A program made the translations under genes and the position numbers. A stretch of 64,000 bases of DNA from Cytobacillus oceanisediminis 2691. Lineage in GTDB: Bacteria > Bacillota > Bacilli > Bacillales > Cytobacillaceae. The DNA is taken from the NCBI RefSeq assembly GCF_000294775.2, contig NZ_CP015506.1:5121501-5185500 (forward strand), read 5' to 3'. The notes below the pieces were generated by a model. The model was not told the DNA's origin. It did no database searches and saw only the letters and a program-made list of their open reading frames with translations. This document shows positions 1,482-16,761 of this stretch, in pieces (the first letter of the stretch is position 1; each line of letters starts with the position of its first letter).

Positions 1482-4293
1482 AACGAGATTTCTCCATGTG
1501 AAAGTGAAACCAATAAACAATGACCGCTACCTGATTTTTGCCGTCAATGAAGAAGGCCGCCTCCTGTCCCCAAAAGAATGGAAGCCGCTTCTTTTTAACC
1601 ATCACAGAGAAAGTTTCTTTGGAACAATGCTTGATGCTGTTGATGCGGACGGAATCAAAGGGATCTCTGTAAGCGGCTGGCAGCTCGTTACCCTGTTTGC
1701 GGCTGAGCAGTTCAACCGTTTGATTGATTGGAGCTGGGATGAAACTGCCGAAATCCTGCTGGCTTCCTCTCATGCTCTTTACGATTCGATCGTGGAAAAA
1801 GAATGGATGCCGGATTTCGCCGCCTGGGAACAGGATCAATTCCGCTGGGCACTGCCGGAAAGTGTGGTTACCGAATTCGGCACAAACTTTTGGGACCAGG
1901 CTGTAGAAGGCTCACCTGTCAGGGAGTTTATCGGAGATTTATTTCACTGCTCCCTTGATGGCTATATGAATCAGAATCAGGAAGCGAAAGCACAGTTCGG
2001 TGAAAAGCTTGAAGCATTGCGGAGTGAGCACCTCTCACCAAAGGATCTTGCTGCTTATTTTGATGAAGAAAGCTGGCAGGAATGGATCGGGGTTAAATCA
2101 AATGAAGCTCCTTTTTCGATTGGACTTAAGCTGGAAGAGCCCGGGGATATTGATTCCAGCTGGGATCTGGCGATATTCCTCCGCGGAAAAAATAATTCTG
2201 ATGTCTTTGTCGACTTCAAGGACTATTCGAACTATCCCCACGACTGGCATGATTTTGAAGATTCTATTGACAAAGAGATCGAGCGCTGGCTTGAGCTATT
2301 CCCATGGCTTGAAGGCAAGCCTGGAATGATCTCCACTTCACTGACTGAAGATGACGCCTGGACCTTTCTCACTGAAGCGAGCGAAACCCTGCTGGCACTT
2401 GGCGTGGAAATCCTGCTTCCTTCGTGGTGGCAGGCTATGAAAAATGCAAGCCTAAAGGTCAAAGCAAAAGTGAAAGGAACCGGGAGCCACCGTCCTTCGT
2501 TTGTCGGGCTTCAGTCCATGCTTGATTATGATTGGCGCTTCAGCATGAATGGCGTTGATTTAACAGAGGATGAATTCCGGGGTATGGTTGAGGAAAAAAG
2601 AAGGCTTGTCTACATTCGCGGCCGCTGGATCAAGCTGGATCCCCATTTTGTCCGCCATATTCAGGATTTAATGAAGAAAGCGGAAAAAGAAGGATTGCAT
2701 GTCCGTGACTTGATAGAACAGGAGCTTATGGCTGACGAGAGCACGCAGGAAGACGAGCTGGATAATCCTAAGGCTTTTGCCCGCATTCAGATCGAGCTTA
2801 ACCGCCAATGGAAACAGATGGTGAAGCAGCTTCGCGATATCAAAAGTCTTCCGCTTGAAGAGGTCCCTGCAAGCTTCAAGGGTGATCTTCGCCCTTATCA
2901 GAAGCTCGGCATGAGCTGGCTGCTGTTTCTGCGCCGATATGGTTTTGGCGCCATTCTGGCAGATGATATGGGGCTTGGAAAAACGATTCAGCTGATCTCT
3001 TATCTGTTAAAGGTAAAGAAAGAGGAAGACAGCGGCCCATCGCTTATCGTCTGCCCTACATCTGTCCTCGGCAACTGGCAGAAGGAAATCGAGCGCTTTG
3101 CACCTGGCATGAATGTTTATCTCCATTACGGTTCAAATCGTCTGAAGGGTGAAAGCTTTTCTGAAAAAGTAATGGAGTCTGATATTGTGCTGACCTCCTA
3201 TGGACTAACCCATATGGATCTGGAGGATTTTGAAACCATCGAGTGGAGCTCCATTTCAATTGATGAAGCTCAAAATATTAAAAATGCCCAGACAAAGCAA
3301 TCGCGGGCTGTCCGAAAGTTAAAAGGCAAGCACCATATTGCCCTCACCGGCACGCCCATGGAAAACCGGCTGACCGAGCTCTGGTCCATTTTTGACTTTA
3401 CGAACCATGGCTATCTCGGCAGCCTCGGGCAGTTTCAGAAGCGCTATGTACTGCCGATTGAAAAGGATGATGACAAGGATAAAGTCAGGCAGCTGCAGGC
3501 ATATATCCGTCCCTTCCTCCTCCGCCGCACGAAGAAGGATGAGGATGTGGCCTTGAACCTGCCTGATAAGCTTGAGCAGAAGGAATATTGTCCTCTTACT
3601 GCTGAGCAGGCCTCGCTATACGAGCAGCTTGTCCAGGATACATTCGCACAGATCGAAAAGCTGTCCGGGTTTGAGCGTAAAGGTCTGATCCTGCAGTTAT
3701 TAAGCCGCTTAAAGCAGCTGTGCAACCACCCGGCCCTTTATTTAAAAGAGGAGAAGCCTAAGCATGTCCTTGAACGTTCTGTAAAGCTTGAAAAGTTAAG
3801 CGAGCTTGTCAGTGCTGTACATGAGCAGGGAGAAAGCTGCCTGATTTTTACCCAGTATATTGAAATGGGGAACATGATCGCCCGCTTGCTGAAAAAACAA
3901 TTCGGATTCGACGTTCCATTTTTAAACGGCAGCGTGCCAAAGCAGGAACGGGACAATATGATCAGCCGTTTTCAAGATCATGAATTCCCGGTTTTCCTGC
4001 TGTCGCTTAAAGCTGGCGGAACCGGTTTGAATCTGACGGCAGCAAACCATGTCATCCATTATGACCGCTGGTGGAATCCCGCCGTCGAAAACCAGGCAAC
4101 CGACCGCGCATACCGAATTGGGCAAAAACGCTTTGTTCATGTCCATAAAATGATTGCCACCGGGACGCTCGAAGAGAAGATTGATGCCATGCTCGAAAAA
4201 AAACAGTCCCTTAATGATCAAATTATTACGAGCGAGAATTGGATTACCGAGCTTTCAACAGATGAGCTGAGAGATCTGGTTCACCTGACATAA
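1474..4293 (+). CDS. ywqA: SNF2-family DEAD/DEAH helicase, RapA/HepA-like
   Basis: A 939-residue protein with a long N-terminal bacterial SNF2-associated region (about 1-450) and a two-lobed SNF2 ATPase. Walker A is DDMGLGKT near residue 497, motif II is DEAQ near 597, the SNF2 motif ALTGTPMENR follows, and motif VI is seen as TDRAYRIGQ near 877. These proteins are ATP-driven translocases on double-stranded DNA; the bacterial branch includes RNA-polymerase recycling factors such as RapA. It starts inside the end of the SWIM gene and is followed by a strong terminator, so the two form an operon. All ATPase motifs look intact. The function in Bacillus is not well established. Confidence 0.93.
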   Translation: MLKTRFLHVKVKPINNDRYLIFAVNEEGRLLSPKEWKPLLFNHHRESFFGTMLDAVDADGIKGISVSGWQLVTLFAAEQFNRLIDWSWDETAEILLASSHALYDSIVEKEWMPDFAAWEQDQFRWALPESVVTEFGTNFWDQAVEGSPVREFIGDLFHCSLDGYMNQNQEAKAQFGEKLEALRSEHLSPKDLAAYFDEESWQEWIGVKSNEAPFSIGLKLEEPGDIDSSWDLAIFLRGKNNSDVFVDFKDYSNYPHDWHDFEDSIDKEIERWLELFPWLEGKPGMISTSLTEDDAWTFLTEASETLLALGVEILLPSWWQAMKNASLKVKAKVKGTGSHRPSFVGLQSMLDYDWRFSMNGVDLTEDEFRGMVEEKRRLVYIRGRWIKLDPHFVRHIQDLMKKAEKEGLHVRDLIEQELMADESTQEDELDNPKAFARIQIELNRQWKQMVKQLRDIKSLPLEEVPASFKGDLRPYQKLGMSWLLFLRRYGFGAILADDMGLGKTIQLISYLLKVKKEEDSGPSLIVCPTSVLGNWQKEIERFAPGMNVYLHYGSNRLKGESFSEKVMESDIVLTSYGLTHMDLEDFETIEWSSISIDEAQNIKNAQTKQSRAVRKLKGKHHIALTGTPMENRLTELWSIFDFTNHGYLGSLGQFQKRYVLPIEKDDDKDKVRQLQAYIRPFLLRRTKKDEDVALNLPDKLEQKEYCPLTAEQASLYEQLVQDTFAQIEKLSGFERKGLILQLLSRLKQLCNHPALYLKEEKPKHVLERSVKLEKLSELVSAVHEQGESCLIFTQYIEMGNMIARLLKKQFGFDVPFLNGSVPKQERDNMISRFQDHEFPVFLLSLKAGGTGLNLTAANHVIHYDRWWNPAVENQATDRAYRIGQKRFVHVHKMIATGTLEEKIDAMLEKKQSLNDQIITSENWITELSTDELRDLVHLT

Positions 4294-4300
4294 ATTTTGT

Positions 4301-4687
4301 TCAGTCTTCAAGTCCTTGATATGCATAAAGGCTTGAAGGCTGTTTTTTTATTATCGCATATTCAGGCTTGTTAGGCTTTTGAGTCAGAAAAGTTACTTTG
4401 CTGCCTTCTTTAATAATGAAACAGGATAGCAGCTGGTATGTAGGATTCTTGTTCCCGGCGTTTATTGCCACCTGGCCGAATAAGAAGTTGAATTTGTAGT
4501 GAAGAAAACTTTCCTTATCGTTAAATGTGAGTGAAGTATGGCTTCTAAGAGGAATTCTATGATAGGATTTATTACTCTGCAGCTGAATAAGCTGAAGTGC
4601 ATCAAAGAAGCTTGGCTGATGATTGGTGTTTAATCTTTTATTTGCTGTTTGAAAATACAGGTATCCGGTTTTATCTCCTTTATCCAC
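4301..4687 (-). CDS. hypothetical protein, 128 aa
   Basis: The start is placed at a GTG preceded by a near-perfect Shine-Dalgarno (GAGGAGGTG) with 7 nt spacing; the frame is open further upstream but has no better start. The product is a soluble-looking, basic protein with no signal peptide, no membrane segment and no motif I recognise. It sits at the left edge of the accessory block, convergent to ywqA. The strong ribosome-binding site supports it being a real gene. Function unknown. Confidence 0.55.
   Translation of the reverse strand: MDKGDKTGYLYFQTANKRLNTNHQPSFFDALQLIQLQSNKSYHRIPLRSHTSLTFNDKESFLHYKFNFLFGQVAINAGNKNPTYQLLSCFIIKEGSKVTFLTQKPNKPEYAIIKKQPSSLYAYQGLED
4303..4350. terminator. Rho-independent terminator, probably bidirectional
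   Basis: Inverted repeat (AGTCTTCAAG...CTTGAAGGCT) with T-run GTTTTTTT on the + side, just after ywqA. The 3' end of the convergent gene at 4301-4687 lies within the stem. Confidence 0.8.
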
Positions 4688-4978
4688 TAAATTGCACCTC
4701 CTCTTTATTATTTTCAAAAAGTATATTCGACACATTCTGTGAAAATCCTCCCTGGTTCTTAATGCCCATATGTAATATTTGTTTTCACATGTGGATTTTA
4801 ATTAAAAATGGCATGAATGTTACTCATTTTTAGTTCCTTTTTTAATTAATATGTGACACTATTTTTAACGTGAACTGTCATCAATCAGCTTTTTTGTAAT
4901 ATTTTTTGTCACTTTTACTAAAAAAATTATTAGCGAGTTTCCCTAAGACTTCTCCTATCTTATAGTTATCAATGAATG

Positions 4979-5308
4979 TTATTGGTGGATGAACGAAATG
5001 ATTGCGTTTTCTTGGAACTTAGGAATCGATATCAAGTTATAAGAAAATCGTATTGGTAAAACACCAATACGTATACCATTATTATTACTTCTCTGTTTCC
5101 AATATTCCGATTCAAATTCAGAAGCCGGTTGTAATTCAATATTTTTCATAATATCTCTTTCTAATGCTTATAAATTTTTATTATCCCTAAAATTATCAAG
5201 ACACTTTGCCGTTACTTCTTCAAAGGGCAGTAATGAATTTTCTTTTTTTAAAATCCTAGGTTCCCTACCATAAATTAATGTTTTGATTTTGAAATTTTCA
5301 CAAATCAT
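4979..5308 (-). pseudogene. possible gene remnant with one in-frame stop
   Basis: Starting at an ATG with a good upstream Shine-Dalgarno (AGAGGAGAAAT), the frame runs 46 codons to a TAA. It then continues in the same frame through 62 further codons to a second TAA. The second part could also start on its own at an ATG at 5149 (56 aa). Either this is a 108-residue protein broken by one nonsense mutation or two very small genes. No family recognised. Confidence 0.35.
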
Positions 5309-5621
5309 ATTTCTCCTCTATTTCATTCAAAAACCTCAATGTTTTCTATATGTATGTTAAGTGCTCCAAACATAGCTTTAAGTAACTTATGTAGCCGTCT
5401 TTATAAAATCCACAACTGAGATTAGTAGCAACCTCGTAATATTAGGATTAAAGCGCACTCTTCGTTATACAACTAATTTTGGTTCAAAAGAAAGTTGCAT
5501 GATTGTTTTCTATTAACCCTGTACGAATGAGCTCCTAGTTCGGACTCGGGCTCTAAGTTTTTAATCAAGTCCATAATTATATGTAAAAGTTAAACAATAA
5601 TTTTCATCTCAAAAATCTAAA

Positions 5622-5653
5622 TAAAAAGGCCCAGCGGCCTGCTGCGCCTTTTT
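5622..5653 (-). terminator. Rho-independent terminator after GntR gene
   Basis: Stem pairing AAAAAGGC with GCCTTTTT around a GC-rich centre, with a T-run on the minus strand, 36 bp beyond the GntR-family stop codon. Confidence 0.75.
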
Positions 5654-5688
5654 ACTACTTTACTTAAGTACGAGTAGTTTATAGGAAC

Positions 5689-6093
5689 TTACTTTTTACT
5701 GATATTTTCATTTACGAAAGCCTTTATTTCTTCAAGTGTCATTCCAAGATAAAGAGCTTCCAAAACCATTTTTTTCAATTCTCTTTTTATAAAGCATTTG
5801 CGATTATTACCAATTGCTTCAGGGACTAAAAGTACAAAGTTTCCTTTTCCCTTAATACTAATTAAATATCCCTGATCTTCTAAATCTTTGTATGCCTTTT
5901 GTATTGTATTTGGATTTATACCTATATGACTTGCTAATGACCTTATTGAAGGTAATTTCTCACCAGGCAAGAAAAAATTATTAATTATTTTGCCTTTTAT
6001 ATCTTCTGATATATTCTTATAAAGCGGGGCATTAGTATTAAGATTTATATTAAACAGCTTACCTTCAAGAATACTAATTGACGTCTTCTTCAT
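5689..6093 (-). CDS. GntR-family (YtrA-type) transcriptional regulator
   Basis: A short (134 aa) GntR regulator: a winged helix-turn-helix at about residues 25-90 (PLYKNISEDIKGKI, LPSIRSLASHIGINPNTIQKA) and a roughly 40-residue helical tail, the YtrA-subfamily layout. YtrA-type regulators usually repress their own transporter operon. Here the partner is a lone substrate-binding lipoprotein without ABC permease or ATPase genes. The ATG at 6093 overlaps the upstream gene by 20 bp and has no clear Shine-Dalgarno. A near-cognate start around residue 13 (CTG after GAAGG) would match family N-termini better, so the start is uncertain. Confidence 0.8.
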   Translation of the reverse strand: MKKTSISILEGKLFNINLNTNAPLYKNISEDIKGKIINNFFLPGEKLPSIRSLASHIGINPNTIQKAYKDLEDQGYLISIKGKGNFVLLVPEAIGNNRKCFIKRELKKMVLEALYLGMTLEEIKAFVNENISKK

Positions 6094-7303
6094 AAGCAGT
6101 TAAAAGGGAATCAATTGTATCTTTGCCATTAAGGTACTCGGTAAAAAACTTTGCCCCTGCAGATTCAACCTTTAAATACTCATCGGCTTCAATACTTGGC
6201 TTTGTTAATAATGCTCCTCCCTGGTCATAAATTGGAGAGAAATCATGCCCATACTTTTTTATTAAAGTTTCTTTTACCCCTGTATCCCAGTATGTTGGTA
6301 ACAAAGATCCCTCCATTAGGTAATTAGCAAACTCTTCGCCTTGGATATAATTAAGAAAGTCGGTTGCTGCCTCCTCACTCTTACTATTAGTGGATAGCGC
6401 GAACAAACTATCTGAATACGCTAACCCTCCATCAATTTCCTGGAATACGGGCATTTGAACAATACCAATATCGAGGTTGTTATCCCCAAATTGATTAAAT
6501 AATTCCTTATCCATAATAGATGCTACAGGCATCACTGACATTGCAACATCACCTTTTAAGAACTCTTTCAAATTTGCCTTTTTATTATCCATATATATTT
6601 TTGTAAACAAAGACCAGTATTTTTTATTCATTTCATTGTTAACTTGAATACTGTTATTCACCTTTTCTATGCTATATATAGGCCTAGTTAATATCTGATA
6701 TAAATAATAAAATTCTTCATCAGAGTCAGGAACTCCCAGAGCCAGCCCCTTGTATTTAGAATTTTGTTGTAATTTCACACTCAAATCATATAAATCCTCC
6801 CAACTCATACTGTTTTTTGGCTCTTCTATTTTTGATTTAGCAAAAATTTCTTTGTTGTATGCTAACACATAACTATTAAATGTAGGAGTAACCGCATAAA
6901 TTTCTCCTTTGCCTGCTTCTTCTATTGGCATGCGTATAGCAGGCGCAAAATTATATAATGCTTTTTTATCTAGTTTTCCATTTAGACTTTGGATAGTGCC
7001 TGTTTCAACCAATCCAGCCAAATATTCAGGTGGAAATCCAAATACCAGATCAACATCATTATTTTCGTTTATATATTTTGCAATAATATTATCTAGCTCT
7101 TCCCAATGTTCTCCAACTTTTTCCACACTATCTAGTATGGGTTTAATTTCTATTTGAGTATTTTTTTTATACTGATTATTAAACACCTGTTCTAGTATTT
7201 CTCCCTGCTCTGGAGATACAACTGCAATTGTAATAGATTTAGATTCGCTGCAACCAGATATCAAAATTACAAGTAAAGCTAATAATAAGGATATTCTTCT
7301 CAA
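6074..7303 (-). CDS. extracellular solute-binding lipoprotein (family 1 type)
   Basis: A 409-residue protein with a TTG start (AAAGGA upstream), a signal peptide and a lipobox ISGC with lipidated Cys18. It is therefore anchored on the outer face of the membrane. The sequence has the features of family 1 (sugar-type) substrate-binding proteins of ABC importers: two-lobed length, AVTPTFNSYVLAYNKEIF in the middle and repeated aromatic ligand-side positions. No permease or ATPase gene is nearby; the only cotranscribed gene is the GntR regulator. It may feed a remote transporter or act as a sensor. The ligand cannot be predicted. Confidence 0.82.
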   Translation of the reverse strand: MRRISLLLALLVILISGCSESKSITIAVVSPEQGEILEQVFNNQYKKNTQIEIKPILDSVEKVGEHWEELDNIIAKYINENNDVDLVFGFPPEYLAGLVETGTIQSLNGKLDKKALYNFAPAIRMPIEEAGKGEIYAVTPTFNSYVLAYNKEIFAKSKIEEPKNSMSWEDLYDLSVKLQQNSKYKGLALGVPDSDEEFYYLYQILTRPIYSIEKVNNSIQVNNEMNKKYWSLFTKIYMDNKKANLKEFLKGDVAMSVMPVASIMDKELFNQFGDNNLDIGIVQMPVFQEIDGGLAYSDSLFALSTNSKSEEAATDFLNYIQGEEFANYLMEGSLLPTYWDTGVKETLIKKYGHDFSPIYDQGGALLTKPSIEADEYLKVESAGAKFFTEYLNGKDTIDSLLTAYEEDVN

Positions 7304-7413
7304 TATACACAGTCCTTTCTTCCTATTTTTTATAAATATGTATATTTTTTACAATTAAACCCAAAAAAATGATAACCTATTCCTGTAACTGTTAAATACT
7401 GGAGGGATTAAAC

Positions 7414-8055
7414 TTGGATTCACGGTACATAGTAACTTTCTCACAAAATAAAAGTTATTCAAATCTACTAGAATTAGCCTTCAAGCAACATCGCATTCAA
7501 TTATTAGAAGTTAGTGATGTTACCGAACTATTGGAATTTATAGAAGATGATTATTGCTTAGCAGTTCTTTATGACGGTTACTTTAAAGATTCCATTCAAG
7601 AATTATTAAGCATGGAGATACATAAACCCATAATTTTATTTTCAAGTCTTCTAAAAAGTATAAATCAATATTTATCATTTCAAGATAGTATTATTAGTAT
7701 CAGCGAACCCATGTTAGATGCCGTAAAAAACTTCTCTAAACAAGAAGCTGCCGATCAATATGTGCTCGATAAAGATGTGGTCTTTTCTATAGAAAATCAC
7801 TGTATTAACAATAAAGAAGAATACTTTAACTTAACCAATTTAGAATTTAGACTTCTATATACTCTTTTAAAGAACCGAGGAAAATTTCTAAGTGTTGATA
7901 ATTTACTAAGTAAACTTGATTTGATGACCCCCTCATCTTTATATGTATGTATAAAGAAGCTTAGAGAAAAGATTGAAAAGGATTCTACCAATCCTTCCCT
8001 ACTAATCTATCATAAAAACAAAGGTTACACTTTAAATATTCTAAATATTAACTAA
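7414..8055 (+). CDS. orphan OmpR-type winged-helix protein with atypical receiver
   Basis: 213 residues with a TTG start behind GGAGGGATTAAAC. Residues 1-105 look like a degenerate receiver: a candidate phospho-acceptor Asp54 (VLYDGYF) is present, but the acidic pair expected after the first strand is replaced by TFSQNK. Residues 130-210 form an OmpR/PhoB winged helix (LTNLEFRLLYTLLKNRGKFLS, then the ICIKKLREKI recognition region and the GYTL wing). No sensor kinase is adjacent. It is divergent from the lipoprotein gene and directly upstream of a secreted protein, so it may control either. Phosphorylation-independent control is an inference from the missing acidic pocket. Confidence 0.72.
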   Translation: MDSRYIVTFSQNKSYSNLLELAFKQHRIQLLEVSDVTELLEFIEDDYCLAVLYDGYFKDSIQELLSMEIHKPIILFSSLLKSINQYLSFQDSIISISEPMLDAVKNFSKQEAADQYVLDKDVVFSIENHCINNKEEYFNLTNLEFRLLYTLLKNRGKFLSVDNLLSKLDLMTPSSLYVCIKKLREKIEKDSTNPSLLIYHKNKGYTLNILNIN

Positions 8056-8238
8056 AATTAAGATTCGAATAGATTTTAATTAAGAACATCTAGGTTAAAA
8101 CCGTTTTAAAGCAATTCTTAATCGTTTTGAAATTTAGAGTTACTAGTATTAACAAAAATTAATGGAATTCTTAATTTTATAATATTTATAATTTTTTTAT
8201 TTTTTAATAATATTAACCTATAAAACGGAGGTGATTAT
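8056..8238 (+). promoter_or_regulatory. AT-rich leader with direct and inverted repeats
   Basis: Upstream of the secreted-protein gene, ATTCTTAAT occurs twice about 53 bp apart (five helical turns). The second copy is part of an inverted repeat (AAAATTAA...TTAATTTT). Direct repeats at helical spacing are typical of OmpR-type binding sites, which makes this a candidate operator for the neighbouring winged-helix protein. Confidence 0.35.
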
Positions 8239-8625
8239 ATGAAGAAGAAGATGAAATCATTAATATTAACAGGAGCTTTAGCAGCTTGCTTAGCTGCCAC
8301 CCCGAATTTTGCATCTGCTGATTCACCATACAACACGCAGTTGGGACCACTTCAATCCAAGTACATTGCTGAAGAGGTAATCTGGGCCGATGCATCAATA
8401 CGAGGAAATCAACAACCAGTATACTCCGGAGGTCGCTGTGGTGTAGAATACCGAGTTGTTAACTCTGGTGGAGCTACAGTTGATTTTGGACAAAGATATG
8501 GTGTTGGGGAGTTTACGCTTAGTCTGGATTTAAACAGTACTGGAGCAAAGCTTCGATTAAAAGCTAAGAACTTATACGCTGATCTTGTAAATACTGTTAA
8601 GATTTGGGGTACTTGGCTAGATTAA
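8239..8625 (+). CDS. small secreted protein of unknown function
   Basis: 128 residues with an ideal ribosome-binding site (GGAGGTGATTAT-ATG). A classical Sec signal peptide ends near ASA-DS (about residue 28), leaving a mature chain of about 100 residues with one Cys (GGRCGVEYR) and many polar, Gly- and Ser-rich beta-type segments. No lipobox, membrane anchor or catalytic motif. The gene lies between an orphan regulator and a CPBP membrane protease, an arrangement seen with bacteriocins and their immunity proteins. However, the sequence does not show lactococcin-972, lantibiotic or double-glycine features. A secreted toxin or signal is possible but unproven. Confidence 0.75.
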   Translation: MKKKMKSLILTGALAACLAATPNFASADSPYNTQLGPLQSKYIAEEVIWADASIRGNQQPVYSGGRCGVEYRVVNSGGATVDFGQRYGVGEFTLSLDLNSTGAKLRLKAKNLYADLVNTVKIWGTWLD

Positions 8626-8628
8626 AAT

Positions 8629-8674
8629 AAAAGCCAGTGACTTTATTTTATAATAAGGTCACTGGCTTTTTTTA
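8629..8674. terminator. bidirectional Rho-independent terminator
   Basis: Perfect 12-bp-class stem (AAAGCCAGTGAC / GTCACTGGCTTT) flanked by A- and T-runs. It separates the convergent secreted-protein and CPBP genes. Confidence 0.92.
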
Positions 8675-9358
8675 TTATATAACTAGTAAAGCGTATAAGT
8701 TCCAAATTAGGTGGGCAACTATCGGAACCCATAAATTCTTAAACTTAATTGTAAGAATACTTAGACCTATTGAAAATGATATTGCAAATATAACGTCATT
8801 GTGGATTATAGTAAACCAAGATATTGATACTAGCAACCAAAGATATCGAAACTTATTATTAAACATAAATAAAAGGGGGCTCCTAAAAACAAGCTCCTCT
8901 TCCAAAGGAGTAATTATAGAAGTCATTAAAAAGAGAATAGCATACTCAGTAAAATGAAAAGGGTGGATATTAATCTGAAAGATATATTTAAATCCGGTTG
9001 AGGCATGTTCTAACATAAAAATCAACAGCAAAAAAACTGTTATCCATATATAAGTATTCACCTTTTTTAAGGGTTTAATAGAGAAATATACTAGTAACTT
9101 TTTTTTGAAGAAAATTAAACAGACTAGAAGGAATAAGAAAATAACTAACAGACTTCCTTCAGGGTAAAATTCTCTTCCAAAATCTATTCTGTCTAGATGT
9201 TTAGAAATGAACCGAAATTCATCTGGATATCTAAGGTTTTGTAAAATGAAAATTGCTGAAAACAATATTACATAGGCAATGGCCTTAACTATAATAAAAC
9301 CCCATCTATTTTTTATGTCATTCTTGTTCTCCTCCACAATACCTTCTCCCTTAAACAT
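8675..9358 (-). CDS. CPBP-family intramembrane metalloprotease
   Basis: Up to 227 residues with about six hydrophobic segments. The CPBP (Abi/CAAX protease) motifs are present in order: EEELVFR (EExxxR), FTIIHND with the motif-2 His, and HLIWN with the C-terminal His. The family comprises membrane-embedded Glu/His proteases; in Gram-positives many are encoded with bacteriocin operons and act in immunity or maturation. It converges on a small secreted protein, which fits that pattern. An alternative start is GTG at 9337 behind GGGAGAAGG, giving 220 aa. The membrane topology and motifs make the family call secure; the substrate is unknown. Confidence 0.83.
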   Translation of the reverse strand: MFKGEGIVEENKNDIKNRWGFIIVKAIAYVILFSAIFILQNLRYPDEFRFISKHLDRIDFGREFYPEGSLLVIFLFLLVCLIFFKKKLLVYFSIKPLKKVNTYIWITVFLLLIFMLEHASTGFKYIFQINIHPFHFTEYAILFLMTSIITPLEEELVFRSPLLFMFNNKFRYLWLLVSISWFTIIHNDVIFAISFSIGLSILTIKFKNLWVPIVAHLIWNLYALLVI

Positions 9359-9583
9359 TGTAATATATTCCTTTTTTTATTAAATCACTTATCAAATAAC
9401 TTTATTTTCATAAAAAGGCCTTTATCTCTTCTAAAGCTTATATACTTTAATTTAACATATTATGTATAAATTGTTATTAATATTAAATATCTTGTTTATT
9501 AGATAAAGCGTTGACGAAGATTCATGTGAATTTTTTAGAGAAATTCTTATTAAATATTGTAAAAATAATTTAGGGGGAATTAA

Positions 9584-10320
9584 ATGAAAATTATTACCAA
9601 GAAATTCTTTGAATGGATCAAGAAGGAATCCAAGAGCTAAAAAAAAGGTTAATAACTCTCATTTTGGATCTACAGAAATTTTCTCAGCTAGATTTGTCCT
9701 TACTTGAGAGCATCATCATACCGGATAACTTAGAAAAGGAATTGATCATACCAAAGGGAACATGACCTTTTAGAAGGTTTTACCCATAATGAACACGCGA
9801 AGGCTTACGCCAAGGTCTTGGATTACATGGTTAATGACAAAAAGCGATGCACTATATTTTTGGAAAAGCATATTGTAGCAGGCTTATATAGACAAGATAC
9901 ACAGCAATTTTCTATTAATACCATCCACCATGAACTTTGCCATGTACATGATGATTTCATTAAGATGAATATATTTAACTCTGATTCTAAGCTCTTGGGC
10001 GATACTGAACTATCCACCCGACTTTACGATAACGCCTGGGGAGCCTGGTTCTGAATATTTCGCCCTCCGGACACCTTCCCCGACATTGCCTAAGGATTCA
10101 GACATTTTGATTCTGTTTTTAGTAGATATAGTTGAGTATACAAAAGGAAAAGCCAGAGAGGAAATCATGTCTATCGGCGCCACGATGATATAGGGAACAT
10201 CCACGACACAAAGCGGCTGCCTGATGATATGGTCGTTAGTCTTAAAGAAAAATTATTCAAGGAAAGTTATTTTGAGGACTTGTGGAAAAACCTTTGGGAT
10301 GCATTGGCTGATTTATATGA
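9584..10320 (+). pseudogene. decayed HExxH peptidase-like gene, several frameshifts
   Basis: A good Shine-Dalgarno (TTAGGGGGAATTAA) precedes an ATG at 9584, but that frame closes after 18 codons. Coding continues in another frame from 9613 (MDQEGIQELKKRL...) to a TGA near 9765. It goes on in a third frame at about 9763-10054, including INTIHHELCHVHDD with an HExxH zinc-binding motif. A further shifted frame encodes SEYFALR, and the last one ends in LADLYDTYPNWTG near 10320. At least four frame breaks make this a pseudogene of a small zinc-peptidase-like protein, reminiscent of the ImmA/IrrE type but not assignable. It converges on the next gene. Confidence 0.7.
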
Positions 10321-11341
10321 TACTTATCCAAATTGGACTGGATTTTATCTCATAATCTTTGGATAGTATTGGACCTTCTTTATTTCCTTTAAGGTGAGGT
10401 TCAATCCATATTAACTTTCGTTCTTTTCTCCCTTTTCCTACTGGCTGGTTCCTCCAATGTCCTCTGACCAACCAGCCATATTCTCTTTCTGTTTTGAGTG
10501 GGCTCCTTTTATGCTCACTGAGCCGTTTTTTTAGACTTGGTTCAATTACTATCTTACTGCCTATCCTGTAATGTCCCGCTCTTTTATCAGCGGGTACCGG
10601 CTTTTGTACGACCAGTAAGGGCTTAGTTGGTTCCACAAACTCAACATCCGCAGTATCGGTCTGAATATAAAAGAGGGTATTCACCACTAAAGCAAATACA
10701 TCCGTTGCTAGCTCCTCGAACTGCAATCCAGCCCTTTTATAGTTGTCCTTTAATTGTTCCCGAACATTTCCGTTCTTGAATTTGAGATGTATCGTGCCAT
10801 ACCGGTATTCCCCTTCAGACTTCATGACCAGTCCTAGTTGGATGTATGAGATGATGCCCTTCCCTACCAGTTGATTCAATTCCTTCTGGCTGTAAGGTCT
10901 CAAATTATATTGATGAACATAGATTCCTTCTATTTCAACTGACTTGCCTTGAGCACTGCCATTAAACATTCCTTTTGGAACTGTTAAATAGATGGTCTGG
11001 AATGGGAGCTTTAAAAACTGAACGTGTACATCTTTCATATCGGTTTGCAGCAATAGATTTGTTACATCAGTGGATAAATCGAAGTGCTTCTTTTGATTTT
11101 TAAAATAGTGATACGTCATCAAGACCATGTTAATCCATACGAGATATCGTTCTCTATCCTTTTTCAAATACTCTAGGTATTCATTTCCGGAGGTCTGTTT
11201 AATAAAAAATTCCAAGGTGAGTTCACTCATATCCATATGGTCCGTCCCGAAATCACTGTCAACTTGGTAGAGCGATTCAAAAAAGTCGAAACCAAACCGC
11301 TTATCCAGGTCGTTTTTGAATTCTACGTAATGTCGATTCAT
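10313..11341 (-). CDS. AcrVA2-like mobile-element protein
   Basis: 342 residues with a strong ribosome-binding site (AAGGAGGGGATGAACGT). No signal or membrane segments. The C-terminus (about 292-320) has VRGHWRNQPVGKG followed by KLIWIEPHLKG. This matches, from memory, the RGHW...G.G...W.P pattern at the C-terminus of the Cas12a inhibitor AcrVA2; a mid-protein segment (FLKLPFQTIYLTVP) resembles its FLNLP...VYV region. AcrVA2 relatives are spread over bacterial mobile elements, most without a tested function. The gene lies between a peptidase pseudogene and an IS110 element. Family similarity is likely; anti-CRISPR activity is not claimed. Confidence 0.55.
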   Translation of the reverse strand: MNRHYVEFKNDLDKRFGFDFFESLYQVDSDFGTDHMDMSELTLEFFIKQTSGNEYLEYLKKDRERYLVWINMVLMTYHYFKNQKKHFDLSTDVTNLLLQTDMKDVHVQFLKLPFQTIYLTVPKGMFNGSAQGKSVEIEGIYVHQYNLRPYSQKELNQLVGKGIISYIQLGLVMKSEGEYRYGTIHLKFKNGNVREQLKDNYKRAGLQFEELATDVFALVVNTLFYIQTDTADVEFVEPTKPLLVVQKPVPADKRAGHYRIGSKIVIEPSLKKRLSEHKRSPLKTEREYGWLVRGHWRNQPVGKGRKERKLIWIEPHLKGNKEGPILSKDYEIKSSPIWISII

Positions 11342-12104
11342 ACGTTCATCCCCTCCTTTTCAGAGTATTTATTTATTCTTATAATTCATTCTACTAATTT
11401 ATAGGAGAGCCATCCATTAAAACCTTTTCCCCTTATTGGATCAACTCACCCGTTAGTTGAAGAAGCCATTATTTTCGAATCTCACTAAAGTGTTTTCTGG
11501 TATTTCAATTGAGTCAATATCAAAGTTATTGATTTGAAGAGTTATCTAACCTTCACGCTTATCCGTTTCTTCTCCAAAAGAAAAGCGCCTTAGATGGCAG
11601 CTGGAATCTTAAAGTAATGCACCCGTTTTGTTTAAGTACATTCCTTCACAAACTTTCTTTTGCTATTTCTTTAATTACAGGAATGCTCCCTCAATAAAAG
11701 AAGCGAAAACGGCTGTTTACTCTAGTTTTCTTAGATTTTCATAGTTAATTACCTGCCGTTAAGTCCTTTATTGTTGGACATTTTTCACTTGAAAGGATAT
11801 ATTTGGACCATTAAAGAAAAAAGAACTATAACCCACTAACCAACCAATTGCAGAAATTGGTGGATAAGTCAAAATATGACCGCACTGGTGGATGTCCACA
11901 TTTCTCATGGAGGTCTACCCTCCCATGCCTCACAGAGTCTTCGCTCTCAAATTCCTTCGTCCAACCTTTCCATGAGGTGGATGTCGGCCATGCTGCCCCA
12001 CAGGGTCCATGCCCGTAATTAAGTTGCTTTGCCGACTAATCCGTGCTTCAAATGTCTCCAAAACTATAAACCAAAAACTATTACTAATCTAAATGAATCC
12101 AGTT
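11342..12104. other. non-coding segment left of IS110 transposase
   Basis: No intact gene. It contains two short accessory-block repeats (about 11436-11472 and 11577-11645). It also has a segment rich in inverted and direct matches (about 11870-12050) with GGTGGATGTC repeated, next to the 3' end of the transposase. This probably includes one end of the insertion sequence and may hold a structured RNA. Confidence 0.5.
11577..11645. repeat. accessory-block repeat, copy 1
   Basis: Shares the pattern AGATGGCAGCT..ATCTTAAAGTAATGC.CCCG with 14387-14435. Further shortened relatives of its flank (gctcc/gcccc-ttttgttt-aataa) lie at 13503-13540, 15095-15130 and 16022-16060. Confidence 0.6.
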
Positions 12105-13400
12105 TTAAGCGGCCAGTTCTGCCTTCTTTAATCCTGACAAGTGAGGGATGTCTTTTAACATCTTTTCTTCACTAAATTCGAATTGCTTTTTATTTATACT
12201 AAAGAAAATACGGATCAATTTATTACACAAAGCGATAAGGGACTGCATCTTCTTTAAAGGATTTTCCGTCCGTTGCGTATAGTAAGTATGAAGGGCCTTA
12301 AAAGCTGAATTTTTGGCAACGAGAATCATGCAAACCCTAAACAACAGAGCCCTTAGCTTCTTCCGGCCTCTCTTAGAGATGGTGGTTTTCCCCTTATGCT
12401 TTCCAGACGTATTTTCCTTTAGGCTCAAGCCGGCCAGCTTAATGATTTGACGGGGGTGAGTGTAGTCACTTAGGTCACCCACTTCCGCAAAGAAACCAGC
12501 GACAGTATCTCTTCCAACACCCTTGACCGCTAACATTTGAGCTACACCTGGGATTTCATCAAGCAGGGAATCTATTTTTGCATCCGATTCTTCGAGTTCC
12601 ATTTGAATCAAATCATATTTAGCCAGAAGAGTTTTCAGCTCCATTTTTGCCATCTCAGAGCCTTGGCGAAGTCCGATGGACTGACTCGCTGCTCGCTTTA
12701 ACTCCCGAATCTTATTGGCACCTACACTTCTTTTTACGGTTTTTCTTAAATGGATAAGTAATTCATCTTCCGTGAAATTGGCTATTTCATGTGGTAATGC
12801 ATAAAGACGTAAGAATTGTAATGCAGCCTTGCCTTCCCACTTCTTAAAGACCTTCAAGAATTCCGGAAAATACCGGTCAATCCAGTTGTGCACCTGTCCC
12901 TGGACCGTTTGTAGGTCCTCGGTTAAAAGATCGCGAATTTTCTTTGCCACACGGAGTTCGGCATAAACACCTTGCGGTATAGTAGGTTCGGCGTATCTTC
13001 CGTCCTTGACCAGTTGGGCAATGACCTTGGCATCTTTTACATCATTCTTAGTTGGAGAATTATCATCAAGCTCCTTGCTTTTCTTGACGTGCAAGGGATT
13101 TACAGCTACAAACTTAATCTCGTTTTCTTTTAAAATGTGAGCCAGGTTAAACCAATAATGACCTGTTGGCTCCATACCGACAATCACTTTCTCCATACTA
13201 TGTGTTTTCTTCGTTTCCGAAATCCAATATAGAAAATGCTCAAAACCTTCTTTTGTATTTTCGAAATAACAAGGGGATCCAAATTCTATTCCCCTGAAAT
13301 CCTGGGCACGTGCCACATGCTTGAATTTCGCAATATCCACCCCTATAATCAGGGTGCAAGGAGTAATTTGAGCAATCTTCTTATTTTGGTTATAATTCAT
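12105..13400 (-). CDS. IS110-family DEDD transposase
   Basis: 431 residues. The N-terminal RuvC-like DEDD domain starts with IIGVDIAKFKHVARA and contains VIVGMEPTGHYW and DAKVIAQLV, which carry the catalytic acids. The C-terminal Tnp_20 domain contains IPGVAQMLAVKGVGRDTVAGF and the Ser nucleophile region around LAGLSLKENTSGKHKG and TISKRGRKKLR. The ribosome-binding site is AGGAGG. IS110 enzymes are RNA-guided recombinases using a bridge RNA from the element's non-coding end. The reading frame is complete, so the element could be active. No other copy is seen in this window. Confidence 0.93.
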   Translation of the reverse strand: MNYNQNKKIAQITPCTLIIGVDIAKFKHVARAQDFRGIEFGSPCYFENTKEGFEHFLYWISETKKTHSMEKVIVGMEPTGHYWFNLAHILKENEIKFVAVNPLHVKKSKELDDNSPTKNDVKDAKVIAQLVKDGRYAEPTIPQGVYAELRVAKKIRDLLTEDLQTVQGQVHNWIDRYFPEFLKVFKKWEGKAALQFLRLYALPHEIANFTEDELLIHLRKTVKRSVGANKIRELKRAASQSIGLRQGSEMAKMELKTLLAKYDLIQMELEESDAKIDSLLDEIPGVAQMLAVKGVGRDTVAGFFAEVGDLSDYTHPRQIIKLAGLSLKENTSGKHKGKTTISKRGRKKLRALLFRVCMILVAKNSAFKALHTYYTQRTENPLKKMQSLIALCNKLIRIFFSINKKQFEFSEEKMLKDIPHLSGLKKAELAA

Positions 13401-13560
13401 TTTAAAGCCTCCTGGTATATGAGTTTTGTCCTTTCTGCTGCCCGGCTTCAGGACTCTCTCATTCTACCAAGAGGTTATTTTTTTGTTCAAACTCCATTTT
13501 CCTTTATTACAGGAATGCTGCCCCTTTTGTTTGAAAAGAAAAAAGCTGCCTGATTAGCAG
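13401..13560 (-). ncRNA. candidate IS110 bridge-RNA region
   Basis: The 5' non-coding stretch of the IS110 gene (about 150 nt on the minus strand) can form hairpins around GAGAGAGTCCTGAAGCCGGG and AGGACAAAACTC. In the IS110 group the bridge RNA is encoded here; in the IS1111 group it would lie at 11870-12104 instead. Position and folding potential are the only evidence. Confidence 0.3.
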
Positions 13561-13565
13561 CTGAA

Positions 13566-14291
13566 CTAAGTATTCTCAACTAACTTTTTTATCGCAGAGA
13601 CTACCACTTCCGGTTCATCATTTTGGATATAGTGAGCACTGTTTTCAGCAATTACCAATTCTCCATCAGAGGATATGTCAAGTATTTCTCTCTGCATTTC
13701 ATTCCATAACTTTTGTGATCCCATAGAATAATGAGCTTTCTTACCCGCTGAAAGAACAATTAATGGTACATTTAATTTTTGTTTAGTGTCTTTTAACTGC
13801 TTTAGACTTTCCATAAATTCGTCATAATTTCCTTCGTAAACGAATTGCTTGTTATATGCTTGCTGAAAATCTTGTGACATAGTAGGGAGAAATCGTTCTT
13901 TGTAATCTTCGGGAGTAGAGTCAATTAAGACTAGTCCACAAACTTCATTTGGATATTCTGTAGCAAACATCCGCATATTTACTCCACCAAATGAATGACC
14001 TGCTAATATGTAGGGAGGTTTAATCTTGGCTTCACTAAGCAGTTCCTTTAATTCTTTTACCATTTCACGGCTAGTTCTGGGATTAGAACTTGGTTCACTT
14101 CTCCCAAGTCCAGCTCTATCATATATTAGTACACTAGAGAGCATTGAAATCTCTTTTAATACTGAATTCCAGGCCTTAGAAAAGTCTCCGTATCCAGCAT
14201 CCATTATGACTGTTGGCTTTCCTTTATTTTCTCCCACCAATTTAGCATATAGTTTACATTTACTTATATGTATAAACATTTCCTTATCCAT
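13566..14291 (-). CDS. alpha/beta-fold hydrolase
   Basis: 241 residues with the alpha/beta hydrolase fold: an oxyanion-strand region (VIMDAGYGDFSKAW), the nucleophile elbow GHSFGG near residue 104, an acid candidate in LVLIDST and a catalytic His in AENSAHYIQ near the C-terminus. No signal peptide, so probably cytosolic. The start has AGAGGAATG upstream. It is separated from its neighbours by the short accessory repeats, so it is probably monocistronic. The family is broad (esterases, lactonases, haloperoxidases); the substrate is unknown. Confidence 0.85.
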   Translation of the reverse strand: MDKEMFIHISKCKLYAKLVGENKGKPTVIMDAGYGDFSKAWNSVLKEISMLSSVLIYDRAGLGRSEPSSNPRTSREMVKELKELLSEAKIKPPYILAGHSFGGVNMRMFATEYPNEVCGLVLIDSTPEDYKERFLPTMSQDFQQAYNKQFVYEGNYDEFMESLKQLKDTKQKLNVPLIVLSAGKKAHYSMGSQKLWNEMQREILDISSDGELVIAENSAHYIQNDEPEVVVSAIKKLVENT

Positions 14292-14386
14292 TGGTTCATT
14301 CCTCTCGTTTTGCCAACTATCCTTAGTTAAAATTTAACAGTATTAAAACTCTTCTTCAACAAACCTGCCCCGTTTGTACAATAATA

Positions 14387-14435
14387 AAAGCCACCTGAGA
14401 TGGCAGCTTGATCTTAAAGTAATGCGCCCGATTGA
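14387..14435. repeat. accessory-block repeat, copy 2
   Basis: Same pattern as 11577-11645 (AGATGGCAGCT..ATCTTAAAGTAATGC.CCCG), located between the hydrolase gene and a small membrane protein gene. Confidence 0.6.
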
Positions 14436-14449
14436 TAAACAATTTTTAT

Positions 14450-14644
14450 CTAAGAAAATACTGCAATTATAAAACTGATAGCAAAGAGAATAAATGCAAA
14501 CTGTATCGTGAAATACATAATTAACTCAAGTGAGACAAGTTTCCTTTGCCTTTTACTCTTTTCTAAATGTCTTAGATAGAAACCAGCACTTATAATAAGC
14601 AAAACACTAGCTATGGCTCGTAAAATTTCCACAAAAATAATCAA
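14450..14644 (-). CDS. small two-helix membrane protein
   Basis: 64 residues with a TTG start behind AAAGGA. Two hydrophobic segments (about 5-22 and 42-62) flank a basic loop (HLEKSKRQRKL). No known family recognised. The hydropathy and start signal support a real gene. Confidence 0.5.
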   Translation of the reverse strand: MIIFVEILRAIASVLLIISAGFYLRHLEKSKRQRKLVSLELIMYFTIQFAFILFAISFIIAVFS

Positions 14645-14757
14645 GCGTATAATTCCTTTCTCTCCAAGACATTCTCTCGTAAGCTGGCCCTATTCTGGCA
14701 TTGTGTTGTACGGCAACGCTCTATATTATTGAGTATCTTTATTGAGCTAATGCCCTA

Positions 14758-15057
14758 TTAGCTAAAAAACATCAAAAATAGCATATCTTTAAAAAATATC
14801 CATAAAAATAAAAACCAAAGTGCTGCTATTCCTTGAAAAATGTATTTTATATATCGAGGGCTTTCCTTATTAAAAGCACCGAACCACTCCGCTAATAAAG
14901 CGATAATTAAGGATAAAAATACATATACTATTAATGGAATCATTTCTGCATCTTGTTCAGATGAAAAAAATTGATTAGAAAAATAAAGTAGAGTTAATGT
15001 TAGAAACATCAAAAAATATATACACAACCAAATAAGGCGACCTTTTCTAGTTTTCAA
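14758..15057 (-). CDS. small membrane protein, three predicted helices
   Basis: 99 residues with a TTG start behind GGGGAGGA. Hydrophobic segments lie at about 8-27, 42-62 and 75-97. Basic residues at the N-terminus and in the second loop suggest an internal N-terminus. No catalytic motif or named family. It sits among other single accessory genes and need not be functionally linked to them. Confidence 0.55.
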   Translation of the reverse strand: MKTRKGRLIWLCIYFLMFLTLTLLYFSNQFFSSEQDAEMIPLIVYVFLSLIIALLAEWFGAFNKESPRYIKYIFQGIAALWFLFLWIFFKDMLFLMFFS

Positions 15058-15178
15058 AATATCCTCCCCATATAAAGAATATTCTTATCGAACTTAAACA
15101 ATACTGCTCCTTTTGTTTAATAAGAAAAATAGCGATATTCTCGATTGAATGATCGCTGTCCGCACCAAGGATAAATAA

Positions 15179-15952
15179 TTAAATAATTCCATACTTTTTT
15201 AATGCATATTCAATTCCATCTTCACTTGATTTCTTAGTGACAAAATCGGCGACCTTTTTCAATTTCTCGTTACCATTCCCCATTGCTATACCTAACCCTA
15301 CTAATTCCAACATATCAATATCATTTTCACCGTCACCAAAAGCGATAGCTTCCGATTTATCGATTCCAAAGAAATCTAAAGTTTTCATAGTAGCTAAAGA
15401 CTTTGAAACATCCTCCTGCAAAACATTTAACACATAAGGATGCCATCTTTTAAATGTTAGATGCGGGAACTTTAGCTTATACTTTTCAACTGTTTCATCA
15501 TTTGCAAACAAACACAATAAGAATATATCTTCATTGTGAATTAGGGGATGAGTTTCAGGATACTCATTTAGAGACAGTGTTTCCTTTAAAGCTTTTAAAA
15601 TTTCCTCCTCCGTTACGCCATTCATACTGAATTCTTCTGTATAGAACGACAAACCGTTATTCTCTATTTTGGCAAATTCTATGACTTCTTGAATAATACT
15701 TTTATTCATTGGTACTTTATGTATAACTTCCTTAATGTGCTTCACGTATCCACCATTTGCAGTTATAAATGTTTCTATACCAAATTCTTGCAGATCCCGA
15801 CACATTGAAAGCGGCCTTCCTGTTGCAGCCACAACCTTTAGCCCTTTGCTTTTCAAAGTCTTTATTGCTTCAATTGCAGATATAGGAATGCTTCCATCTT
15901 TGTGATTTGTAATAGTTCCATCAACATCAAAAAAAACAATTTTATAACTCAT
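15179..15952 (-). CDS. Cof-type HAD-IIB phosphatase
   Basis: 257 residues with the four HAD motifs: DVDGTI at residues 9-14 (nucleophile and acid Asp), a Thr in AATGRP (motif II), a motif III Lys around VSKSLAT, and GDGENDIDML (motif IV, Mg2+ ligands). The cap between motifs II and III is the type IIB cap of the Cof family. These enzymes dephosphorylate sugar phosphates, nucleotides or flavin precursors. Length and N-terminus resemble B. subtilis YkrA rather than YwpJ, although ywpJ lies in the equivalent region there. The ribosome-binding site is CGGAGAT. Substrate unknown. Confidence 0.88.
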   Translation of the reverse strand: MSYKIVFFDVDGTITNHKDGSIPISAIEAIKTLKSKGLKVVAATGRPLSMCRDLQEFGIETFITANGGYVKHIKEVIHKVPMNKSIIQEVIEFAKIENNGLSFYTEEFSMNGVTEEEILKALKETLSLNEYPETHPLIHNEDIFLLCLFANDETVEKYKLKFPHLTFKRWHPYVLNVLQEDVSKSLATMKTLDFFGIDKSEAIAFGDGENDIDMLELVGLGIAMGNGNEKLKKVADFVTKKSSEDGIEYALKKYGII

Positions 15953-16076
15953 AAATATCTCCGTTAAATAGTTTTTTTATAATAAACTAATATTTAATAT
16001 TCGCCCATCATACAGGGAATCCTTCTTCAACAAACCTGCCCCGTTTATTTAATAAAGAATTCAACAAAAAAGGGGC

Positions 16077-16243
16077 TTAATCCTCCTGGATCAACGCACC
16101 CATATGTACTATTTCCTTACTCTCAATGATTGCTCCAATTCTCTTCACCATTCTATTTTGAGAATGATGATTTCCCCAGTACCGATATTCATTAATCTGC
16201 TCCTTTTATTTCTCCAAAGACATTGATCAACAAGTTGTTCCAT
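16077..16243 (-). pseudogene. possible small-gene remnant with frameshift
   Basis: An ATG at 16243 follows a near-consensus Shine-Dalgarno (AAAGGAGGAGAT). The first frame gives MEQLVDQCLWRNKRSR and soon ends. A second frame carries NEYRYWGNHHSQNRMVKRIG on to a stop at 16077. A single frame break would join them into a protein of about 55 residues. No family recognised. Confidence 0.3.
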
Positions 16244-16761
16244 TATTATCTCCTCCTTTGAAGATATTATATAACAAACAAACGTTCCGTTTTAAAGAGT
16301 AAGGGAAAATTGAGTTTTTGACATCGTAAGTCAAAAAATTGAGCAGCATACGTACTGTACGCCACCCGATTTTTTTAAATTACCACACTTGTCTTTGCCA
16401 GTCCCCGATTCATTTAAGAACGAAGATTCGGTTACCAACTTTGTTTTTGAGTTACTAAATTTGTTTTAATTAAACAACACCACCAAGCCTCTGAAAGGAA
16501 ATTTACCACTATAACAGTTTTAGCATGGTTCCTCAGTTTATCTAAACTTAAAATAAATGACATTATTATTTAAAATTAATTTCGTTTACAAACAATAAAA
16601 ACTACTGGTCTAACCACAGCAAGGTATGACAGGATCATTTTAGGAAAACCTTGATAAGATAACATTTTTAAGGTGTCACCTATAGTAAAATATTGTGACA
16701 TTTTATTTTTAAATCTGTGACATTTTATATTAAAATACACATCACAAACAGAGTTAGAAAT

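Follow-up and report, generated by a model that had tools for sequence, protein, structure and literature searches.

A Tn7-like element of Cytobacillus oceanisediminis 2691 carries a gene of the AcrVA2/FinQ superfamily, a candidate silencer of rival genes

The 342-aa protein P0001 of Cytobacillus oceanisediminis 2691 is almost certainly a member of the superfamily that contains AcrVA2 and FinQ, and its gene is cargo of a Tn7-like insertion. The gene lies in a stretch of 64,000 nucleotides, here called the window, to which coordinates refer unless another sequence is named. The mRNA decay due to AcrVA2 and the mating inhibition by FinQ had been reported earlier; what is added here is the homology between AcrVA2 and FinQ and the carriage of P0001 by a Tn7-like element. 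A preliminary description of this DNA had proposed the likeness to AcrVA2; the minus strand of the gene, the link with FinQ and the carrier element go beyond it. The gene and its immediate surroundings comprise the following features, where "both groups" stands for the window clade and the AcrVA2/FinQ-type proteins compared below.

10313-11341, minus strand: AcrVA2/FinQ-superfamily gene, 342 aa (P0001), from the frame as read and from fold and profile matches
10397-10465, minus strand: C-terminal signature RGHWRNQPVGKGRKERKLIWIEP (RGHW...G...IWIEP), residues 293-315, conserved in both groups
10985-11017, minus strand: mid-protein segment FLKLPFQTIYL, residues 109-119, with P113 and Y118 conserved in both groups
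11352-11358, minus strand: Shine-Dalgarno sequence AAGGAGG, 10 nt 5' of the P0001 ATG
12105-13400, minus strand: IS110-family transposase gene within the element, the family being taken from the names of near matches
about 9584-10366, plus strand: broken frame with an HHELCH motif, which reaches the 3' end of the opposite-strand P0001 gene

The frame of P0001 is uninterrupted over its 342 codons, and the plus-strand reading of the same positions is full of stops. Both the intact frame and the strong ribosome-binding site of the preliminary description were thus found. Its account of the neighbours held for the IS110 gene, which ends 763 bp upstream of P0001 and belongs to an IS110 that shares about 92% identity with plasmid-borne copies from Cytobacillus, and for the decay of the frame on the other side; the name "peptidase" given to the latter has the HHELCH motif as its only basis. 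A 128-aa protein encoded at 8239-8625 had no Pfam match, and we take it to resemble lactococcin 972. P0001 is single-copy in its own genome (5.85 Mb, 2 contigs). Of 151 genomes of relatives, including its own, two gave a match at E <= 0.001, one of them weak (E 3.2e-4). Across the phylum, the clade profile matched 3 of 398 genomes, again including its own, the other two matches being weak and partial. The gene is therefore rare around its host.

The AcrVA2-like identity, which had been claimed from two motifs, was confirmed by the predicted fold. An AlphaFold2 model of P0001, built from 50 aligned sequences (mean pLDDT 80.4, pTM 0.81), was compared by Foldseek with 350,542 PDB chains. Only three chains matched at E <= 0.001, all of them AcrVA2: 7ci2_A (E 6.2e-9), 7ci1_B (3.3e-8) and 7ci1_A (4.2e-8). 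The TM-scores were modest (0.44-0.58) and the rmsd was 7.6-9.9, which suggests either a different domain arrangement or an imperfect P0001 model; identity within the structural match was 14-15%. Among viral models, 13 matched P0001 at E <= 0.001, including a protein of Erwinia phage RisingSun, a phage in which the AcrVA2 protein of Shewanella phage Y11 also has a sequence match. The superfamily member of this phage (vB_EamM_RisingSun, 128443-129123) is annotated as "putative mycothiosynthase", a name that is likely a misannotation.

Profile-profile comparison agreed with the fold over the middle and C-terminal domains. The bridge to AcrVA2 was the Y11 protein (WIF21996.1), which is AcrVA2 by its record name and matches 7ci1 at 1.5e-72. 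A profile of 35 window-type proteins, P0001 included, taken as full-length picks from 154, was compared with six AcrVA2/FinQ-type proteins, namely WIF21996.1 and five picked from its matches (P0011-P0015). The match scored 98.9% (E 1.4e-17) with 235 columns in order, and it stayed at 94.4% (8.6e-8, 66 columns) when the RGHW end was removed, a cut by pattern that was possible for 32 of the 35 clade proteins and five of the six others. Two control sets of 20 (one reversed and 19 shuffled) each gave 0.3% or less. With a larger set of 39 AcrVA2/FinQ-type proteins, left from 51 extracted after length and 85% redundancy filters, hhalign gave 99.2% (E 5.6e-20) and, with the C-terminal domain removed, 97.7% (1.8e-12, 192 columns); the shuffled controls belong to the six-protein comparison only. 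Since the match survives without the C-terminal domain, the homology to AcrVA2 rests on more than the motif of the preliminary description. Simpler searches did not reach it: P0001 gave nothing meaningful directly against Pfam, PADLOC, NCBIfam and PDB, where no unrelated family fitted it better either, and no match to the six AcrVA2/FinQ-type proteins when used alone, and AcrVA2 was missed in PDB searches with the relatives P0003 and P0007 and with the HMMER clade profiles A1 and A2. From the window clade, AcrVA2 was reached only by profile-profile and fold comparison.

FinQ was reportedly described in 1989 as a transcriptional inhibitor. The FinQ protein of pEC224_2 (P0011), which is the first row of the AcrVA2/FinQ profile matched by the window clade, matched AcrVA2 7ci1 directly (E 3.5e-16), and on sequence FinQ is an AcrVA2 homologue. 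P0011 was translated from an upstream ATG (363 codons), the record annotating a shorter finQ frame: in pEC224_2 (468-1559 of the locus extracted), finQ is annotated from 780, but the open frame reaches back to 468 and the part homologous to the phage AcrVA2 to 504. The Y11 protein matched 607 plasmid records, 563 of them conjugative, and the name FinQ stood on 32 of the 40 plasmid matches listed. In the full-text literature, preprints not covered, no paper was found that names both FinQ and AcrVA2. P0001 shares with FinQ the superfamily and most of the conserved columns; it differs in that FinQ falls outside the window clade (support 1.0), its own position being poorly supported (0.42), and in that the window gene does not lie in a conjugation region. 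The Cas12a peptide LSKT was absent from 33 F transfer proteins. These held five loose matches to it, of which those in TrbB (LTKS, residue 3) and TraN (LTKT, residue 307) came nearest, and a shared motif is unsupported.

Relatives of P0001 were collected by tblastn, which gave 19 plasmid records and one phage record, and by motif-pattern scans. In species genomes 111 stretches matched the motif and 65 loci were kept; in viral contigs, where a first scan with P0001 alone had found no relative, 164 stretches matched, 103 relatives were found and 80 were kept. Relatives thus occur on plasmids, on phages and viral contigs and on chromosomes of many phyla, and the annotated records seen were named "hypothetical protein". 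Both motifs of the preliminary description, RGHW...IWI.P and FLKLP...IYL, are present and are conserved beyond chance in the clade and in AcrVA2/FinQ-type proteins. P113, H295, W296, G302 and P315 are invariant in the 35 aligned full-length clade members (P0001 included) and their columns are 85-100% conserved in the 39 AcrVA2/FinQ-type proteins. Among the relatives from the collection scans, conservation of the motif is partly by construction because they were found through it; the plasmid relatives were not. Columns alike in both groups are, in window numbering, T100, P113, Y118, G139, Y225, D232 (replaced by E in roughly half of the AcrVA2/FinQ-type proteins), G261, R293, H295, W296, G302, W312 and P315. 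The window clade has GHWRNQ where AcrVA2/FinQ proteins mostly have GHWH, and its chemistry or partner may therefore differ.

A tree of 74 proteins built with FastTree united all 35 window-type proteins in one clade with a support of 1.0, in which P0001 grouped with two proteins from viral contigs (0.97). Some of the relatives (L006, L007, L036, L043, L061) are 546-585 aa long and have an extra N-terminal part. P0001 also matched phrog_15934 of PHROGs, of unknown function (E 2.5e-12), as did all nine members of profile A1; P0001 covers only the C-terminal part of that family model. On Citrobacter freundii plasmid pZY-2 a window-type relative (4284-5471 of its locus) has a toxin-antitoxin pair on one side and an integrase with a Tn3 transposase on the other, and this hit recurs on a Shewanella bicestrii plasmid.

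No constant partner gene was seen by Pfam among 86 immediate neighbours of genome loci. For 73 viral loci, PHROGs was run on 93 of the 131 immediate neighbours (the 38 left out being mostly on the opposite strand), and no family had more than two members. These inconstant neighbours fit a stand-alone effector. A partner exonuclease was considered because RNase_T occurred in 5 of the 86 neighbours; by motif, RNase_T-type neighbours belong to the near-identical loci L072, L073 and L080 and perhaps to the pair L043/L044, and the candidate was dropped since near-identical loci leave few independent cases.

The gene of P0001 lies within an insertion that was delimited by comparison with related genomes and has the following parts.

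4790-16741, no strand assigned: Tn7-like element carrying P0001, 11,952 bp, from empty sites in related genomes and from end structure
4785-4789, plus strand: left copy of the target-site duplication TCACA, single copy in the empty site of genome G151
16742-16746, plus strand: right copy of TCACA, likewise single in that empty site
4790-4814, plus strand: left terminal inverted repeat, beginning TGTGGATTTTAAT, compared with the right tip
16717-16741, minus strand: right terminal inverted repeat, beginning TGTGTATTTTAAT, compared with the left tip
starts at 16694 and 16716: two TGTGACATTTTAT repeats near the right end

In G151, which is of the same species, and in G005, G006, G024 and G032, no more than about 26 bp separate the sequences that flank the element; these are the five genomes inspected closely of 36 of the genus. 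The two tips are identical at 20 of 25 bases and at 12 of the first 13, an agreement reached by none of 20,000 random 13-mer pairs from the region. TGT..ACA ends, 5-bp duplications and insertion after glmS are marks of Tn7-like elements. Relatives of the right end, at 83-84% identity over 68 bases from the very tip, were found in G016 (five places) and G018, and over 62 bases in G026. A GlmS-type gene, so called because its domains (SIS, glutamine amidotransferase) are those of GlmS, precedes the related end by 25 and 28 bases in G018 and at one of the G016 places; beyond the related end of G018 lies a type I restriction system. Four of the G016 places (contig C4, 4520000-4532000; 4743-7157 of locus L239) stand in tandem, exactly 782 bp apart. 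Beside a Tn7-like end of the same contig (4600000-4614000, locus L242), two tandem 651-codon GlmS-type frames (6462-8414 and 8725-10677) with identical domains and scores look like a glmS duplication.

The window element thus shares with Tn7-like transposons the TGTG inverted ends, the end-proximal repeats, the 5-bp duplication and ends whose relatives follow a GlmS-type gene; it differs in being inserted away from glmS and in its lack of detected tns genes. No tns-type gene was found in seven element frames searched against Pfam, a set without the IS110 gene and the small frames. Outside the element, the genome has a frame of 648 codons that weakly matches rve and could serve in trans. The other cargo, by Pfam, comprises a GntR regulator, a solute-binding protein, a response-regulator-type DNA-binding domain, a CAAX-protease-like protein and two hydrolases. 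The whole element was not found on plasmids, the best cover being 29%, in Cytobacillus firmus.

According to published work, AcrVA2 recognises Cas12a during its synthesis and triggers the decay of its mRNA (PMC13131331; PMC10403363), a mechanism described as unprecedented in prokaryotic defence conflicts (PMC13131331). On the basis of the homology to AcrVA2, we propose that P0001 may read a nascent peptide and silence the mRNA that encodes it, a reading to which we give slightly less than an even chance. Like AcrVA2, it would use its middle domain to bind one specific protein at the ribosome while the chain is still being made, and the conserved RGHW C-terminal domain would couple this binding to decay of the mRNA for that protein. 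The target here would not be Cas12a, and most likely it would belong to a phage or conjugative element in competition or to the defences of the host; given the silencing mechanism, we consider it evenly balanced whether the target is such a rival-element or defence gene. A rival-element target is suggested because FinQ inhibits F transfer and P0001 is carried on a mobile element. FinQ, which lowers F-plasmid transfer transcripts, would be the model. A review describes this IncI1 inhibitor of F transfer as terminating tra transcription at more than one site and without Rho (PMC8744291), and transcription termination rather than decay speaks against silencing of the proposed kind; co-translational decay would also yield fewer distal tra transcripts, and the FinQ data may thus be compatible with decay.

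An action as an anti-CRISPR, whether the Cas protein is a Cas12a met in earlier or different hosts or is not Cas12a at all, is decidedly improbable for P0001, even if membership of the AcrVA2 superfamily and carriage on a mobile element would suit it. P0001 resembles AcrVA2 (Moraxella; PDB 7ci1 and 7ci2) in its fold and in the conserved P113, G139, G261, R293, H295, W296, G302 and W312. It differs in its low identity, in having GHWRNQ for GHWH, in being carried by a Tn7-like element where AcrVA2 lies in a prophage, and in a host without detected Cas12a: profile searches of its own genome found neither Cas12a (TIGR04330) nor Cas1, the latter search being positive in 9 of 14 controls. Among other carriers, 50 of the 65 loci were submitted and 49 genomes were searchable, and Cas12a was detected in 0 of 49; many of these are MAGs with no completeness given, so that single absences are weak. 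The search was able to detect Cas12a: applied to 398 genomes of the phylum, it was positive in three, two of them above the cut-off. These counts, with the plasmid records, uphold the earlier claim that relatives are found on mobile elements and in genomes without detected Cas12a. Furthermore, the relative FinQ has a published function as a mating inhibitor (PMC8744291).

If P0001 instead bound a finished defence or conjugation protein and blocked it directly, no mRNA decay would be involved. This is unlikely, but the fold can bind such segments, as AcrVA2 in the crystal is reported to bind also the internal Cas12a peptide 618-634 (PMC13131331); the effects reported for AcrVA2 in vivo are on mRNA (PMC13131331) and those of FinQ on transcripts (PMC8744291), which argues against it. 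That the gene is an unexpressed passenger in a decaying island appears improbable: the neighbouring frame is broken, a transposase gene ends shortly upstream and promoter-like sites are no more numerous than in shuffles (4 vs a mean of 5.7), yet the frame is open over its full length, its ribosome-binding site is strong and it has kept the residues that both groups conserve. The surroundings of some relatives on plasmids include parA, rep or toxin-antitoxin genes, as might be expected if P0001 regulated its own carrier through control of copy number or transposition; with no tns-type genes found in the element and with inconstant neighbours of the relatives, we regard this as highly improbable.

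We further suggest, tentatively, that AcrVA2, FinQ and the window clade could form a single ancient family of programmable silencers that belong to mobile elements. Each would read a short peptide in the nascent product of one rival gene and destroy the mRNA of that gene during translation. The anti-CRISPR action would then be one use of the family, FinQ would work in the same way, and the window protein would silence a Bacillaceae gene.

The homology of FinQ makes an AcrVA2-type mechanism testable in the classical F-plasmid system. One mechanism could explain many genes for "hypothetical proteins" across plasmids, viral contigs and chromosomes, and a peptide-programmable knock-down tool could follow from it. 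Rival mobile DNA may have in the AcrVA2/FinQ superfamily a general means of silencing genes.
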